From: an uncultured Paracoccaceae bacterium
GTDB taxonomy: Bacteria; Pseudomonadota; Alphaproteobacteria; Rhodobacterales; Rhodobacteraceae
Assembly: GCA_947503765.1 (NCBI GenBank)
Contig: CANNFA010000010.1
Coordinates: 1 to 64,000, forward strand
DNA length: 64,000 bases
Reading direction: 5' to 3'
The notes under the pieces are model-generated. The model was given only the letters and a program-made list of their open reading frames with translations. It was not told the DNA's origin and ran no database searches. Positions 6,262 to 36,294 of this stretch are shown here, one piece after another (position 1 is the first letter of the stretch; the number at the start of each line of letters is the position of its first letter). The translations under genes were made by a program, and so were the position numbers.

Positions 6262-7158
6262 TCAGAACTTGTTGGCCGGGATCTTGAAGTAATGGCTGCC
6301 ATCGGCTTCCGGCTCGGGCAGGCGGCCGCCGCGCAGGTTGACTTGCAGCGCGAACAGCATCCGGTCCGGCAGGTCGAGCGTGGCGTCGCGCGCGTCGCGC
6401 AGGGCCACATATTCGGCCTCGGACACGCCGCCGCCGACATGGGTGTTGTGCGCGCGGTGCTCGGCCACCGTCGCCTCCCAGGCGGGATCCTCGCGGTCGC
6501 CGACGGGCGGATAATCGTGGCCGATGAACAGGCGGGTGTCTTCGGGCAGCGACAGGATTTCCTGGAGCGAGCGGTACAGCTCAACCGAAGAGCCGCCGGG
6601 GAAATCGGCGCGCGACGTACCGGCATCGACATGCATGAAGGTGTCATGCACGAAAGCGGCATCGCCCACGACATAGGTGATCGAGCCCAGCGTATGACCG
6701 GGCGACAGTATCACCCGCACGTCCAGATCGCCGATGCGGAACGTGTCGCCATGCGCGAACAGGCGGTCGAAATCGCGGTCCGGATCATAGGCGCCGGGCG
6801 TGTGGTAAAGCGATTCCCACAGCGTGCCGATCTCGCGCACCTTCTCGCCGATGGCGGTAGGCGCGCCGGTCTGCTGCTTCAGCCAGGCCGACGCCATGAG
6901 GTGATCTGCATGCGGGTGGGTGTCGAGGATCCACTGAACCTCCAGCCCTTCGCGCCGCACGAAATCGAGGATCTCCTGCGCGCTGTCGGTGCGGGTCCGG
7001 GCATGGGCCGGGTCGAAATCCAGCACCACGTCGATCAGTGCCGCCTTCTTGGTGGCCTCGTCGATGGCGACATACTGGCAGGAGCCGGTGGCCTCTTCGT
7101 AGAACCCGACGACCCGGGGCGATCCGGGGCCGCCGGAGGGGCTTTCGCGTGTGAACAT
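6262..7158 (-). CDS. MBL-fold hydrolase, persulfide dioxygenase-like (ETHE1/Blh group)
   Basis: 298 residues from the ATG at 7158, chosen because AAGGTGAGG stands just upstream and because a more distal in-frame GTG (7191) falls inside the predicted -10 box. The metal-binding motif THPHADHL is near residue 80, with SPGHTLGS and VHDTFMHVDAG further on; these fit ETHE1/Blh mononuclear-iron persulfide dioxygenases rather than lactamases. It would oxidise glutathione or protein persulfide to sulfite. It leads a two-gene operon with a rhodanese. Close families (glyoxalase II) are possible, but the rhodanese neighbour and the sulfide-type operator favour persulfide oxidation. Confidence 0.88.
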   Translation of the reverse strand: MFTRESPSGGPGSPRVVGFYEEATGSCQYVAIDEATKKAALIDVVLDFDPAHARTRTDSAQEILDFVRREGLEVQWILDTHPHADHLMASAWLKQQTGAPTAIGEKVREIGTLWESLYHTPGAYDPDRDFDRLFAHGDTFRIGDLDVRVILSPGHTLGSITYVVGDAAFVHDTFMHVDAGTSRADFPGGSSVELYRSLQEILSLPEDTRLFIGHDYPPVGDREDPAWEATVAEHRAHNTHVGGGVSEAEYVALRDARDATLDLPDRMLFALQVNLRGGRLPEPEADGSHYFKIPANKF

Positions 7159-7190: not shown

Positions 7191-7218
7191 CACATATTCT
7201 GCCAGAAGAATGTGTAAA
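7191..7218 (-). promoter_or_regulatory. Predicted promoter with SqrR/BigR-like operator ATTC-N8-GAAT
   Basis: On the minus strand, TTTACA (7218-7213) and TATGTG (7196-7191) are separated by 16 bases, a plausible sigma-70 promoter about 30 bases before the persulfide-dioxygenase start. Between and across these hexamers lies ATTC (7196-7199), eight bases, GAAT (7208-7211), embedded in a wider imperfect palindrome ACACAT...ATGTGT. ATTC-N8-GAAT is the published recognition pattern of the sulfide-responsive repressor SqrR of Rhodobacter and is close to BigR sites. Position over the promoter predicts repression relieved by persulfides. The regulator gene itself is not in this window. Confidence 0.72.
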
Positions 7219-28559: not shown

Positions 28560-29186
28560 TCAGAATTCGACGCCCTGCTGCGCCTTGATGCCGGCGCGGA
28601 ACGGGTGCTTGACCAGCTCCATCTCGGTCACGAGATCGGCAATCTCGATCAGTTCTTCCTTGGCATTGCGCCCGGTCAGCACGACATGGGTCATCTCGGG
28701 CTTTTCCGTGCCCAGGAACGCCACCACCTCGGCGATGTCGATGTAGTCGTAGCGCAGCGCGATGTTGATCTCGTCGAGCAGGACCATCCGGTTCGCGGGG
28801 TCGCGGATCAGCTCCTTGGCCTTCGCCCAGGCGGCCTGCGCCATTTCGATGTCGCGGCTCTTGTCCTGGGTTTCCCAGGTGAATCCTTCGCCCATCGTGT
28901 GGAACTGGCAAATGTCCGCGAAACGGCTTTCGATCAGGTCGCGCTCGCCGGTGGACATGCCGCCCTTGATGAACTGCACCACGGCGCACTGCATGTCATG
29001 CGCGATACAGCGAAAGATCATGCCGAAACCGGCCGTGCTCTTGCCCTTGCCCTTGCCGGTATGGACGATGATCAGGCCTTTCTCGTCCGTCTTGGTGGCC
29101 ATGATCTTGTCGCGCGCGGCCTTCTTCTTGGCCATCTTGGCGGCGTGGCGGTCGGTGTCGGGCTGGGGGGTGTCCTGATCGGTCAT
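28560..29186 (-). CDS. cobO: Cob(I)yrinic acid a,c-diamide adenosyltransferase
   Basis: 208 residues, CobO/BtuR type: P-loop HTGKGKGKSTAGFG near residues 42-55, the segment CAVVQFIKGGMSTGERD, and LLDEINIALRYDY with Walker B character. It attaches the adenosyl group to Co(I) corrinoids in cobalamin synthesis. The N-terminal 35 residues are lysine-rich. The start overlaps the stop of a GNAT gene by ATGA, and HupE-like cobalt permeases follow after 67 bases. The cobN-cobW-cbiM set lies only 2.3 kb away. Confidence 0.95.
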   Translation of the reverse strand: MTDQDTPQPDTDRHAAKMAKKKAARDKIMATKTDEKGLIIVHTGKGKGKSTAGFGMIFRCIAHDMQCAVVQFIKGGMSTGERDLIESRFADICQFHTMGEGFTWETQDKSRDIEMAQAAWAKAKELIRDPANRMVLLDEINIALRYDYIDIAEVVAFLGTEKPEMTHVVLTGRNAKEELIEIADLVTEMELVKHPFRAGIKAQQGVEF

Positions 29187-29757: not shown

Positions 29758-30966
29758 TTACTCTGCCGGGACGGCCGGTGCCGCGGCCGGTCTGCCGAAA
29801 TGCTGGCGGTTGAGCCGAAGCACAAGCCAGACCATCCCGAACTGGAAGGCGATGGCGATTGCCGTCAGCGTCCAGTACGCGGCCGAGAACTGTGCCAGCA
29901 TGTCGGACTCGACCAGACCCTTGTTGATCCAGAATTGCAGCATCACGCTCATCCCGACGCCGGGGCAGACCAGCGCGTAGGATCCGGGCGAGGTTTCGGT
30001 GCCGAACACGAAGCTGCGGAAATAGCCCTGCCGGCGCAGCACCAGCATTCCGAGCAGCAGGAAGATCACCTGCACCGCGACCAGCCGCGACAGGAAGACC
30101 AGCGTGTCAGCGGCCTGGTCCTGGGCCGCAAAGGCGGTGTGCAGCCCGTGATCCTGGCGCAGGAACATGATCCCCAGAACCGTCAGAAGCGGCACGATGA
30201 TCATCAGGGTCGGCCCGGATTCGCGCGCGGTGCCGTAGTGCAGCATCGAGTTGAAGCCGGTGATCGCCGCCACCGTGGCGTAAATGATCGAGGCGAATCC
30301 GAAGAAGGTCGACCCGATCAGAGAGATGCCCTGCACCAGCGGCGCGGCGCTCATCGCGGCGGGGGCGGCAAAGCCGACGGCCACCATCGCCAGCGCGAAG
30401 GCCGGCAGCAGCTGGGCAAAGCTGTTATGCGCGGTCACGTCGAACACGCCGCCCTTGGTCAGAACGCGGCCCAGAAAGTTGCCGATCATGTAAAGCGCCA
30501 TGCCGCCGATGATCGCAAAGCCGATCATCGCCAGCGGGAACAGGTACTCGACCACGCTCCACAGCCCCGGCACGAAGACGAGGCCAAGCATGAAGCCGCC
30601 ATTGACGCCCATGGCCAGCGGCATCGCCAGAAGCTGCGATTCGCCGTTGGTGCTGCGCAGTTTGCGATACGCCTCGGTCTGGCGGAAGGCGCGGTACTGG
30701 CCGAGATTCCACAGCAGCGACTTGTAATGCACGAAGGCCATCGCGGCGATGCCGGCCATGGCGATCACGATCCCGACCTGAAGCGCCGGGCTGCCGGTCG
30801 CGAGGGCGGCCATGATGTCCTCGAAGACCGGGACCGACTTGCCGGGATGCGGCACCCAGAACATCAGGTACATGAAGAAGGTGACGATCAGGCCGCCGGC
30901 ACCGAGCGCGCCGAGGAAATAGAGCGGCGAATAGGTGTCCGCCGGGCGGGAGACGGGATGGGACAT
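29758..30966 (-). CDS. Multi-spanning membrane protein, TsoY-like, with sulfide-type operator
   Basis: 402 residues with about ten predicted helices. The pattern PLYFLGALGAGGLIVTFFMYLMFWVP, SLLWNLGQYRAFRQTEAYRKLRSTNGE, CPGVGMSVMLQFWIN and a conserved Cys in LVCPGVGM resembles a Rhodobacterales-rich family I associate with the name TsoY, some of whose members use selenocysteine; this recall is not verified. Function is unknown. The promoter overlaps ATTC-N8-GAAT, the SqrR/BigR pattern also found before the persulfide dioxygenase operon at 7.2 kb, so a role in sulfur or persulfide handling is inferred. A terminator follows. Confidence 0.6.
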   Translation of the reverse strand: MSHPVSRPADTYSPLYFLGALGAGGLIVTFFMYLMFWVPHPGKSVPVFEDIMAALATGSPALQVGIVIAMAGIAAMAFVHYKSLLWNLGQYRAFRQTEAYRKLRSTNGESQLLAMPLAMGVNGGFMLGLVFVPGLWSVVEYLFPLAMIGFAIIGGMALYMIGNFLGRVLTKGGVFDVTAHNSFAQLLPAFALAMVAVGFAAPAAMSAAPLVQGISLIGSTFFGFASIIYATVAAITGFNSMLHYGTARESGPTLMIIVPLLTVLGIMFLRQDHGLHTAFAAQDQAADTLVFLSRLVAVQVIFLLLGMLVLRRQGYFRSFVFGTETSPGSYALVCPGVGMSVMLQFWINKGLVESDMLAQFSAAYWTLTAIAIAFQFGMVWLVLRLNRQHFGRPAAAPAVPAE

Positions 30967-30980
30967 GGCAGGCTCCGTTC

Positions 30981-30996
30981 ATTCATATTGATGAAT
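30981..30996 (-). promoter_or_regulatory. SqrR/BigR-like operator ATTC-N8-GAAT before the membrane protein
   Basis: ATTC (30981-30984), eight bases, GAAT (30993-30996); the arms extend to ATTCAT-ATTG-ATGAAT, a perfect 6-base inverted repeat. It begins 15 bases before the start codon and abuts the AT-rich hexamer TATATA (30997-31002), so binding would block the promoter. The same spaced pattern occurs at 7196-7211 before the persulfide dioxygenase/rhodanese operon. Confidence 0.7.
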
Positions 30997-31083
30997 ATAT
31001 ATAGCGAAACCCGCATCGCATTGTCCTGCGTCAAACTGTCCTTGGTAAACCGGACATTAACCATTTGCCCCCAGACAGGGCGG

Positions 31084-31485
31084 ATGTGGGTTCGATTTGC
31101 GTTTTTCATGGCGCTGGTGGCGCTTGCCGGTTGCGACAGTCCCAGCCCGGCCTTTGCACGGCTGCCGGCACACCGTGTAACAGTGGATGGCTCGATCTTT
31201 GCGGTGCGCCATACCCACTTTGACGCCGAAGCGATCCGCCTGAGCGTCGAAGGCAGCACGACGCGCGGCGGCACGGTGTTCAAGGGCGCCAAGGCGATGA
31301 TCCTGGTCAGTGGCTGCGCCGTGGTCCCCGAAACCCTGAAGGGCGATGAAAACCTCGTTTACGCCGATCTCGACTGCCCCGGTGCGGGGCAGCGCCCGCC
31401 GCGGCGCAGGAAACCGCTTGAACTCGATTGCGCGTTTACCGGCGCGGTGGCGGACGGTGATTTCCGCTGTACCGCGCTGCGCTGA
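31084..31485 (+). CDS. Small putative lipoprotein of unknown function
   Basis: 133 residues from the ATG at 31084. The N-terminus is a lipoprotein signal (WVRFAFFMALVALAGC, lipobox LAGC), giving a mature cysteine-anchored protein with one later Cys pair (SGCAVV..., LDC, LDCAFTG). No known domain is recognised; a beta-rich fold with VTVDGSIFAVRHTHFDAEAI is apparent. Such small lipoproteins are common in Rhodobacteraceae. It converges with cobN, 5 bases away. Confidence 0.6.
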   Translation: MWVRFAFFMALVALAGCDSPSPAFARLPAHRVTVDGSIFAVRHTHFDAEAIRLSVEGSTTRGGTVFKGAKAMILVSGCAVVPETLKGDENLVYADLDCPGAGQRPPRRRKPLELDCAFTGAVADGDFRCTALR

Positions 31486-31490
31486 CCGCC

Positions 31491-34400
31491 TCAGCCGGCC
31501 AGACGGTCCAGCAGCGCGCGGGCGGAATTGGAGCGCGGCGTCCACATCCCGCGTTCGACCGCTTCGCGCAGGCGTTCGGCGATCTCGCGCAGGGCGGGGG
31601 CGTTGTGCGTCTCGATGAAGTCGCGGGTCTCCGCGTCTTCCAGAAACGCGGCGTGCACCAGATCGAAATGGTGTCCCCTGACCGCCCCGGTGGTGGCGGC
31701 GAAGGCGAACAGGTAATCGACCGTCGCCGCGATCTCGAAGGCGCCCTTGTAGCCGTGGCGTTTCACACCGTCGATCCATTTCGGGTTGACCACGCGCGAC
31801 CGCACGACGCGGCCGATCTCGTCCTCCAGCGTGCGGATGACGGGGCGTTCGGGGCGCGAATGGTCGTTGTGGTAGATCGGACGCTGGCGGCCCTGAAGAT
31901 GCGTAACGGCGGCGGCCGCGCCGCCCTCGAACTGATAGTAGTCGTCGCTGTCCAGCAGATCGTGCTCGCGGTTGTCCTGGTTCTGCACGATGGCGTCGGT
32001 TTGGCCCAGCCGGGTTTCGAGCGCGCCGCGGGCGGGGGTTCCCTCCGCCTCCTTGCCATAGGCGTAGCTGCCCCAGGTCAGGTAGGCTTCGGCCAGGTCA
32101 GCGGTGTCGTTCCACAGCCGCTCGTCGATCAGCGCCTGAAGCCCGGCACCGTAAGCGCCCGGCTTGGCGCCGAACACGCGGAACTGCCCCTCCGCCCCCT
32201 CGGTGCGCGCGCGGGCGGCGGCGGGGTTGGCGTCGTCGGGCTCGTCCAGCGCCATGACCGCGCGGGCGGCGGCATCGAACAGCGCGATCTGGTGCGGGAA
32301 CGCGTCGCGGAAGAACCCCGACACCCGCAGGGTCACATCGACGCGGGGCCGGCCCAGCGCGGTGTGGGGGATGAGCTCGAACCCGGTGACGCGGCGGCTG
32401 GCCGCGTCCCATTGCGGCCGCACGCCCATCAGCGCCATGCCCTGCGCGATGTCGTCGCCGCCAGTGCGCATGTTGGCGGTGCCCCAGGCGGTCAGCAGCA
32501 TGGCGCGCGGCCAGTCGCCATGATCCTGAAGGTGCTTGTCGATCAGCAGCGACGCCGATTTCCAGCCCAGCGCCCAGGCCGCCTGGGTGGGCACGGCGCG
32601 GCTGTCGATGGAAAAGAAGTTGCGCCCGGTGGGCAGCACATCGGGCCGCCCGCGCGTCGGTGCGCCGGACGGGCCGGGGGCGACGAAGCGGCCGGACAGC
32701 GCGGTCAGCAGGCCCGCGCCCTCGGCCGCGCCGCACGCCGCCAGCGCCGGGCGCATCCGCGTGGCGGCCTCGTCCAACACCGCAGCACTCTTCGGCCCCG
32801 GCGGCCCCGCCTCGTGGTCGAACAGGCGCTGGGCCAGCAGTTCCAGCCGCTCGACGCTGTCGCCGTTGCTGCGCCACGGATCGGCTGTGAGCGGTGCCAG
32901 CCCTGCCGGTTTTTCGGCGGCGGGCGCCGCCATGTCGCAATCCAGCGGATCGACGCCAAGGCCGAGATCCTGCGCCAGTGCGCGCAAGAGCGAGGCATCC
33001 CCGCCCGCCCCCTCGCCGCGCGGGGTGCGCACAAGCGCGATGGCCAGATCGCGCTCCAGCGTGCCGGCGGGGGACTGGCCGAAGACGTGCAGACCGTCGC
33101 GGATTTGCGCCTCTTTCAACTCGCACAGATAGGCGTCGAGGCGGGCAAGGTCGGTATCCTCGTCATCGCCGGTCATGCCCGCATCGGCATCGAGCCCGGT
33201 GGCCGAGGTCAGCGACAGGATCTCGCGCCGAAGATGCGCGATGCGGCGCGGATCGACGCCGGCGGCCTCGAAATACTCGTCGACCAGCGCCTCGAGATCC
33301 TTGAGCGGGCCGTAGGTTTCGGCGCGGGTCAGCGGCGGGGTCAGGTGATCGACGATCACCGCCTGGGCGCGGCGCTTGGCCTGCGTGCCCTCGCCGGGAT
33401 CGTTGACGATGAACGGGTAGACATGCGGAACTGGGCCGAGCACGGCCTCGGGCAGGCAGGTTTCGGACAGCGCCAGCGCCTTGCCGGGCAGCCATTCGAG
33501 ATTGCCGTGCTTGCCCATGTGCACGATGGCATGCGCGCCCCAGTGATCGCGCAGCCAGATGTAGAAGGCGAGGTAGTTGTGCGGCGGCACGAGGTCGGGC
33601 GAATGGTAGGTGTCCGCCGGGTCGATGTTGTAGCCGCGCGCCGGTTGCAGCGCGACGACCGCGCCTCCGAAGCGGTGGATCGAGAGCTTGAAGCCTCCTG
33701 CGGAGGCTGCCTCCGGCGGGGATATTTCGGAACCGAAGAAGGGATCCTGTTCCGGCTTGCCCCAGCGGTCCTCGATCCGTTGGCGAACTTCCCAGGGAAG
33801 GGTCTTGTAGCTGGCGAGGTAGGCGTCCAGCGACAGGGTTTCGCCGCCGCTCCGGTCCGCCCGGTCGGTCAGCCAGTTGGTCGGGCCGGCCATCAGCCGC
33901 GCCATCAGCGCGTCCGCACCCGCAGGGATGTCCGCGATGTCGTAGCCGTCTTCGGCCAGCAGGTGTAGCGCGTGCAGGGTGCTGGCGGGGGTGTCGAGGC
34001 CGACGCCGTTGGCGAGGCGGCCGTCCTTGTTGGGATAGTTGGCAAGCACCAGCGCCACCTTGCGCTCGGCGGCCGGCGTGCGGCGCAGGCGGGTCCATCT
34101 GGCGGCGAGGCTGGCCACGAAGTCGATCCGGTCGCCGCGCGCGCGGTACGTGGCGATCGGGCATTCGGTGTCCGCGTCGAAGAACGCCTCGTCCTTGAAG
34201 CTGACCGCGCGGGTCAGGATGCGTCCGTCGATCTCGGGCAGGGCGACGTTCATCGCGATGTCGCGGGCGGACAGGCCGGCGAGGCCCTGATCCCAGGCTT
34301 CCTCGGTTCCCGAGGACAGCACCACCTGGAACACCGGGGCACCGTTCGCGGCCGGCGCGGCCAAGGGGTTGGCGTCGCCGCCGCCGCCGGGGGTGCCGGC

Positions 34401-35201
34401 GCTGAACGCGGTGCAGTTCAGGATCGCATCCGGCGGCGCCTGGGTGAACAGCCGGTCCAGCGTGGCGGCCGAGACCGGATCCTTCAGCGAGGCGACGAAG
34501 ACCGGCATCGGGTTCAGCCCGGCGCGCAGCAGGGCACGGGTCAGCCGGTTGATCGGGTGCAGGCCCGCGCCCTGCACCAGCGCGCGGTAGAAGACCAGCG
34601 GCACGACCGGCGCGCCCGTCGTCCAGTTGCGGCGCAGAGTGGCGAAATCGGCGGTGCTTTCGCCCGGCCAGTAGAGCCCCGCGCGCAAGAGCGGTTTGGC
34701 GGGTGGCGGCGCCTCGGTCCCGGTCAGCATGTGGGCGGCATGGTGCAGGAAGTTCGCGGCGTTCTCGGGCCCGCCCTCGACCAGGTAGGACCAGAGCGCG
34801 TCGTAATCGGCATCCGCGACGGTGGACAGGCGGCGCAGGTCGGCATCTGGCTTGTCGTCGCCCGGCAGCAGCGCCAGTGGCACGCCCGCCGCATGCAGGT
34901 GCGCCGCGTATTGCTCGGCGCCATAGCGCCAGTAGCCCAGCCCGCCCAGCACGCGGGCGACGACCAGCCGGGATTTCGCCGCGCACTGGTCGATATGCAG
35001 GTCCACCGACATCGGGTGGCGCAGGTGCATCAGGCTGGCCAGCCGCAGGGTCGGGGGGCTGTCCATCTCGGCCCGGGCGGCCGACAGGGCGGCCAGTTCG
35101 GTATCGGCGGCCGATAGCACGACGACATCCGCCGGGGTCTGGCCCAGATCGACAGGCTCGGTATCGTCGACCGTGCCGGGGGTGGCGGCGAGCAGGTGCA
35201 T
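31491..35201 (-). CDS. cobN: Aerobic cobaltochelatase subunit CobN
   Basis: 1236 residues, the size expected for CobN. Characteristic segments include HMGKHGNLEWLPGKALALS, ARGYNIDPADTYHSPDLVPPHNYLAFY and IVNDPGEGTQAKRRAQAVIVDHLTPP. With CobS and CobT it inserts cobalt into hydrogenobyrinic acid diamide in the aerobic B12 pathway. It follows cobW by 10 bases on the same strand, downstream of the cobalamin riboswitch. Residues encoded around 33691-33743 (SEISPPEAASA) fall where other CobN proteins, as I recall, have a shorter run, and this DNA matches the dispersed repeat family; see the repeat entry. Confidence 0.95.
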   Translation of the reverse strand: MHLLAATPGTVDDTEPVDLGQTPADVVVLSAADTELAALSAARAEMDSPPTLRLASLMHLRHPMSVDLHIDQCAAKSRLVVARVLGGLGYWRYGAEQYAAHLHAAGVPLALLPGDDKPDADLRRLSTVADADYDALWSYLVEGGPENAANFLHHAAHMLTGTEAPPPAKPLLRAGLYWPGESTADFATLRRNWTTGAPVVPLVFYRALVQGAGLHPINRLTRALLRAGLNPMPVFVASLKDPVSAATLDRLFTQAPPDAILNCTAFSAGTPGGGGDANPLAAPAANGAPVFQVVLSSGTEEAWDQGLAGLSARDIAMNVALPEIDGRILTRAVSFKDEAFFDADTECPIATYRARGDRIDFVASLAARWTRLRRTPAAERKVALVLANYPNKDGRLANGVGLDTPASTLHALHLLAEDGYDIADIPAGADALMARLMAGPTNWLTDRADRSGGETLSLDAYLASYKTLPWEVRQRIEDRWGKPEQDPFFGSEISPPEAASAGGFKLSIHRFGGAVVALQPARGYNIDPADTYHSPDLVPPHNYLAFYIWLRDHWGAHAIVHMGKHGNLEWLPGKALALSETCLPEAVLGPVPHVYPFIVNDPGEGTQAKRRAQAVIVDHLTPPLTRAETYGPLKDLEALVDEYFEAAGVDPRRIAHLRREILSLTSATGLDADAGMTGDDEDTDLARLDAYLCELKEAQIRDGLHVFGQSPAGTLERDLAIALVRTPRGEGAGGDASLLRALAQDLGLGVDPLDCDMAAPAAEKPAGLAPLTADPWRSNGDSVERLELLAQRLFDHEAGPPGPKSAAVLDEAATRMRPALAACGAAEGAGLLTALSGRFVAPGPSGAPTRGRPDVLPTGRNFFSIDSRAVPTQAAWALGWKSASLLIDKHLQDHGDWPRAMLLTAWGTANMRTGGDDIAQGMALMGVRPQWDAASRRVTGFELIPHTALGRPRVDVTLRVSGFFRDAFPHQIALFDAAARAVMALDEPDDANPAAARARTEGAEGQFRVFGAKPGAYGAGLQALIDERLWNDTADLAEAYLTWGSYAYGKEAEGTPARGALETRLGQTDAIVQNQDNREHDLLDSDDYYQFEGGAAAAVTHLQGRQRPIYHNDHSRPERPVIRTLEDEIGRVVRSRVVNPKWIDGVKRHGYKGAFEIAATVDYLFAFAATTGAVRGHHFDLVHAAFLEDAETRDFIETHNAPALREIAERLREAVERGMWTPRSNSARALLDRLAG
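33691..33743 (+). repeat. Dispersed TATTT...GAAGAA element, copy D, inside cobN
   Basis: Within cobN, a hairpin GCCTCC-TGC-GGAGGC (33693-33707) is followed by TGCCTCCGGCGGGGATATTT and then CGGAACCGAAGAAGGG. It closely matches copy E at 59711-59744 (TGCCTCCGGCGGGGATATTT then GCGAACCGAAGAAG). It runs antisense to cobN and keeps its frame open, encoding SEISPPEAASAGG on the cobN strand. Confidence 0.7.
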
Positions 35202-35211
35202 CAGCGCCGGG

Positions 35212-36294
<1,083 letters not shown>

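Follow-up and report, generated by a model that had tools for sequence, protein, structure and literature searches.

The 64,000-nucleotide stretch of DNA that was analysed (the window) carries on its minus strand, at 29758-30966, a gene for a membrane protein of 402 aa with ten long membrane helices in its structural model. The protein was assigned to the TsoY family by its match to NF047644 (506.3 bits over residues 12-388, cut-off 150 bits) and further characterized using AlphaFold and Foldseek. It scored 48 bits against the selenoprotein model of the family, NF047643, below the 250-bit cut-off, and with a TGC codon for Cys334 it represents the cysteine form. No genome with a seleno-TsoY over the NF047643 cut-off was found, nor was a selenoprotein operon seen around the window tsoY. 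Cobalamin genes (cobO, cobN and a cobW-like gene) lie on either side of tsoY at 28560-29186 and 31491-36294; among 79 loci that were compared, tsoY has a cobN-type neighbor in about 22 and a cobO-type neighbor in about 12. A small divergent gene for a lipoprotein-like product without a family match is located at 31084-31485, and a relative of it adjoins tsoY in 39 of the 79 loci.

As the preliminary description of this DNA had reported, the 16-mer ATTCATATTGATGAAT is present at 30981-30996, where it forms a perfect ATTCAT-ATTG-ATGAAT dyad, i.e., two inverted 6-bp arms around a 4-bp loop, and contains the pattern ATTC-N8-GAAT, and its companion site was likewise found at 7196-7211. The dyad (ATTCATCAATATGAAT in the orientation of tsoY, minus strand) is a predicted SqrR site and lies 14 bp upstream of the ATG (30966) of the minus-strand ORF. 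It had also been placed on the -10 region of the promoter. A -10-like hexamer, TATATT, does overlap the operator at 30994-30999 on the minus strand, and an alignment of 91 operator sites shows TATAT-ATTC as their conserved left flank. The hexamer is thus a plausible -10 region of tsoY, although a promoter scan returned no sigma-70 match for the tsoY promoter.

The companion site (ATTCTTCTGGCAGAAT, 7196-7211, minus strand, ATTC-N8-GAAT) precedes a gene on the same strand (6262-7158) for a persulfide-dioxygenase-like protein with a metallo-beta-lactamase fold (PF00753), which matches NF040641 over the dioxygenase part with 418 bits, below the model's cut-off of 625. This operator is kept with spacing 8 in the sister species and in six of 11 close orthologues. 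A second dioxygenase-like gene of the same genome, directly followed by a SulP permease gene (L262:2539-5140, G000:C6), has no exact operator in the preceding 180 bp.

Conservation of the operator and its predicted regulator

Judged by its counts, the pattern taken alone is unconvincing and within chance. The window contains two ATTC-N8-GAAT sites compared with a mean of 0.59 in shuffled sequences, and 14 of 100 shuffles reach two. The whole genome contains 21, while spacings 0-20 together give 470, i.e., 22 per spacing, and there is accordingly no genome-wide enrichment of spacing 8. The majority of the 21 exact sites lie inside reading frames, which were called crudely. The apparently strong enrichment over the reversed pattern (21 versus 2) was rejected, since the reversed pattern is a poor control and the other spacings show none. 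One exact site of this genome (L073, G000:C7:13503-13518) directly precedes a methyltransferase-like ORF, a possible further target.

The significance of the operator comes instead from its spacing-specific conservation before tsoY in many marine bacteria and across many genera. Of 199 genomes from the family to which the window's organism belongs, roughly one for each genus, 54 carry TsoY-family genes. The exact pattern is present within 150 bp upstream of 35 of these 54 genes, whereas any other spacing from 0 to 20 occurs in zero to three. In a second set of 80 named relatives, which overlaps the first, 78 genes had a placeable start and 69 of them are preceded by the exact site. Other spacings were rare here as well, except for spacing 14 (19 cases), which we attribute to half-sites that overlap. 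When both sets were pooled and duplicates removed, the exact site was present in 93 of 120 tsoY promoters, and a site with at most one mismatch was found within 120 bp in 101 of the 120. At the same loci, 99 sites lie in the 11.7 kb directly upstream of TsoY compared with two in 1.23 Mb of flanking DNA. A chance match, which would agree with the unenriched counts in window and genome, is refuted by this spacing-specific conservation in many genera and can be dismissed for practical purposes. The operators are concentrated 30-38 and 55-57 bp upstream of the ATG, tandem pairs are common and mostly 24-25 bp apart, and the extended consensus reads tATATATTC-N8-GAATAT.

The pattern is identical to the site that has been deduced for SqrR in R. 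capsulatus (PMC9774250). The genome to which the window belongs encodes one protein of the SqrR subfamily (L076:4989-5393, minus strand, G000:C6), whose best PDB match is R. capsulatus SqrR (6o8k-6o8o, E 1.6e-37) and which keeps both sensor cysteines (ILC and DMFC). SqrR (E <= 1e-30) was found in 53 of the 54 TsoY genomes compared with 96 of the 145 without TsoY (Fisher p 2.8e-7, uncorrected for phylogeny).

Sulfur genes were not found in the local tsoY neighborhood of the rhodobacterial relatives. Among eight non-rhodobacterial loci, one shows a run of sulfur genes around tsoY. In this genome (G384, L257), which is gammaproteobacterium-like and which we read as a gammaproteobacterium, a minus-strand run comprises a SLAC1-family tdt gene, tsoY, and genes for an octaheme cytochrome of the tetrathionate-reductase family, a cytochrome b561, a metallo-beta-lactamase-fold protein resembling persulfide dioxygenase, a sulfur transferase/SQR fusion and SulP, in this order. 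A SLAC1-family gene is also found beside tsoY in a second non-rhodobacterial genome (G913, L271), where the two adjoin divergently, while the six remaining loci showed no SLAC1 or sulfur-run link.

Because of the conserved operator, the single SqrR orthologue, the co-occurrence of SqrR and TsoY, and the sulfide-oxidation gene run, the predicted control of tsoY by SqrR is well supported. It is conceivable that the dyad is genuine and bound by another ArsR-type repressor, so that sulfide would not be the signal. Related repressors share sites, as sHdrR binds fragments with SoxR sites in Hyphomicrobium (PMC12423496), and some genomes have two SqrR-like proteins. However, the window's genome has only the one SqrR-subfamily protein, its two other ArsR-type matches are distant from SqrR, and the tsoY site equals the deduced SqrR site, which makes a different repressor very unlikely. 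The conserved operator, the SqrR orthologue, the co-occurrence and the gene run also support the earlier proposal that the membrane protein takes part in a sulfide/persulfide response, with the reservation that 27 of the 120 promoters do not have the exact site. Absence of the operator in genomes that possess SqrR had been named as an argument against this proposal, and it holds for a minority only: eight of the 27 promoters are one mismatch away, and genome G149, for instance, has a close SqrR orthologue yet a different motif before TsoY.

The situation resembles the SqrR regulon of R. capsulatus in the orthologue with both cysteines, in the ATTC-N8-GAAT site before the gene and in the presence of a persulfide-dioxygenase-like gene among the site-bearing genes. 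In contrast to that regulon, many tsoY promoters carry two operators 24-25 bp apart, some of them together with an FNR box. No mention of TsoY as a SqrR target was found in the literature examined.

Fold of TsoY and position of Cys334

No Pfam family matched the window protein, including PF03595 (gathering score 27.9 bits), against which the best relative (L024) reached 22.6 bits (E 6.7e-5) and thus remained below the family cut-off, so that a link by sequence exists but is slight. A PDB sequence search with TsoY also found nothing. An AlphaFold model computed with 66 relatives reached a pLDDT of 85.9 and a pTM of 0.86. When this model was compared with the PDB by Foldseek, the top ten matches were all SLAC1, SLAH or TehA structures with a probability of 1.00, albeit at modest scores (query TM 0.42-0.52, target TM 0.47-0.66, E 2e-3 to 5e-2), and the first match after these ten dropped to a probability of 0.15. 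When the profiles of TsoY and of SLAC1 relatives were compared, the scores were weak (probability under 2%, E 0.03-0.13). The modeled structure lends fairly good support to the view that TsoY, a protein of the inner membrane, has the fold of TehA and of the plant SLAC1-type anion channels. Like the SLAC1/TehA/TDT family (PF03595), which supplies the top ten fold matches, TsoY has ten helices in its model and a Pro that follows the gate position of TM9. Unlike it, TsoY is 402 rather than about 300-330 aa long, the window protein has no PF03595 match, and the gate phenylalanine is probably replaced by an invariant Cys in TsoY and by Sec in the seleno form.

This residue, Cys334, belongs to a CPGV motif (codon 29965-29967, minus strand) and is invariant in both TsoY alignments, with no second invariant Cys in the aligned families. 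In a forced full-length profile alignment with SLAC1-family proteins, Cys334 falls on the phenylalanine before the conserved TM9 proline, in agreement with a shared Ala-Leu-x-x-Pro pattern, and the TehA residue at this place, as counted in the alignment, is F262. The TehA gate residue F262 corresponds to F450 of SLAC1 (PMC10645844). Cys334 is therefore the likely equivalent of the SLAC1/TehA gate phenylalanine, an assignment that is tentative because the profile score is weak. The Sec motif of seleno-TsoY is given as UxxV in a 2026 review (PMC13188914); the window protein has CPGV at the UxxV place, and Cys334 is also likely to mark the Sec position of the selenoprotein, from which the window protein differs in being the Cys form.

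The window TsoY lacks two residues of TM3 (30613-30627, minus strand), namely LA of AMPLALAM, so that PLALAM is shortened in-frame to PLAM, while 66 of 66 relatives have the Leu and 65 of 66 the Ala (one Thr). The Leu-Ala pair was probably lost by slippage at a CTGGCG/CTGGCC repeat. Since two conserved TM3 residues are missing, the TsoY copy of this strain may be impaired or not fully active.

Possible function of TsoY

TsoY has a family name, but no assigned function was found in the literature examined. Two independent clues, a conserved sulfide-response operator and a predicted SLAC1-type fold with Cys or Sec at the likely gate position, make TsoY a testable candidate for a sulfur-anion channel. 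Such a channel would supply a missing piece of sulfide detoxification in bacteria, the exit route of oxidized sulfur, and may explain the selenocysteine at the gate position in some lineages. We consider the chances about evenly balanced that SqrR-controlled TsoY is a persulfide-induced outlet of the SLAC1/TehA fold that releases a sulfur anion, with sulfite as the likeliest candidate. For SqrR binding and derepression in this organism, and for the channel activity, direction and substrate of TsoY and the role of its cysteine, we infer the following course. As a repressor of the ArsR type that carries two sensor cysteines, SqrR would bind the 16-bp dyad overlapping the tsoY promoter and keep the gene off. 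Sulfide would be oxidized to per- or polysulfide, a polysulfide bridge would form in SqrR, and SqrR would leave the DNA. The derepressed tsoY would be expressed together with the persulfide-dioxygenase-like gene, and TsoY would allow a small sulfur anion to leave the cell, for which sulfite is our best guess. Cys334, at the likely gate place, might modulate gating or serve as a binding site for the sulfur substrate.

Sulfite is the product of persulfide dioxygenase. It is favored as the cargo because a dioxygenase-like gene occurs in the tsoY run and because Ssu1, which pumps sulfite in yeast, bears the Pfam motif of SLAC1 (PMC6765260). The earlier suggestion that the membrane protein exports or imports a sulfur compound gains from the predicted SLAC1/TehA fold, while direction and substrate stay conjectural. 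Points against an outlet are the modest Foldseek scores, the weak profiles, the loss in TM3, the sulfur run at only one of eight loci and the frequent cobalamin neighbors.

The operator and fold evidence would equally suit a channel-like TsoY under SqrR control that carries HS-, thiosulfate or a small polysulfide, or that works inward, with Cys334 contacting sulfur. The invariance of the Cys at the gate position points in this direction, as does the existence of a Sec form, and the SulP and plain SLAC1-family transporters of the genome could serve the oxyanions. However, the run with a sulfite-yielding dioxygenase-like gene and the known SLAC1-family sulfite pump favor sulfite, and another cargo or inward transport appears rather unlikely to us. 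We also regard it as unlikely that TsoY is a sulfur-gated anion channel, in which persulfidation or oxidation of the gate Cys or Sec by reactive sulfur would let the signal that lifts SqrR also open the channel.

Selenocysteine usually marks redox catalysis, and seleno-TsoY is listed among selenoproteins from a three-selenoprotein operon, one of which is a rhodanese/DsbD-like protein (PMC13188914), so that TsoY might be a redox enzyme of the membrane or a protein that relays sulfur, with a catalytic Cys or Sec, and not a channel. The fold, however, matches anion channels only, and there is one invariant Cys with no second in the aligned families; we hold such a redox or relay role to be quite unlikely.

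Other elements in tsoY promoters

An exact FNR-type box, TTGAY-N4-RTCAA, was found in 23 of the 120 tsoY promoters and at none of the other spacings from 0 to 14, mostly centered 65-70 bp before the tsoY ATG, a placement that would suit an anaerobic activator. The window carries a degenerate FNR-like box (TTGACGCAGGACAA, 31021-31034, minus strand) at about the same place as the exact box in related promoters.

Three tsoY promoters without the SqrR-type site (L059, L060 and L062) share a GTGAC-N3-GTCAC block, with near matches in L058, L063 and L087. An ATTAG-N6-CTRAT dyad, which has the same 16-bp frame as ATTC-N8-GAAT, is located upstream of tsoY in L265, L266, L090 and L091. It is carried by some of the non-rhodobacterial tsoY loci and is perhaps the site of a local SqrR/BigR relative.
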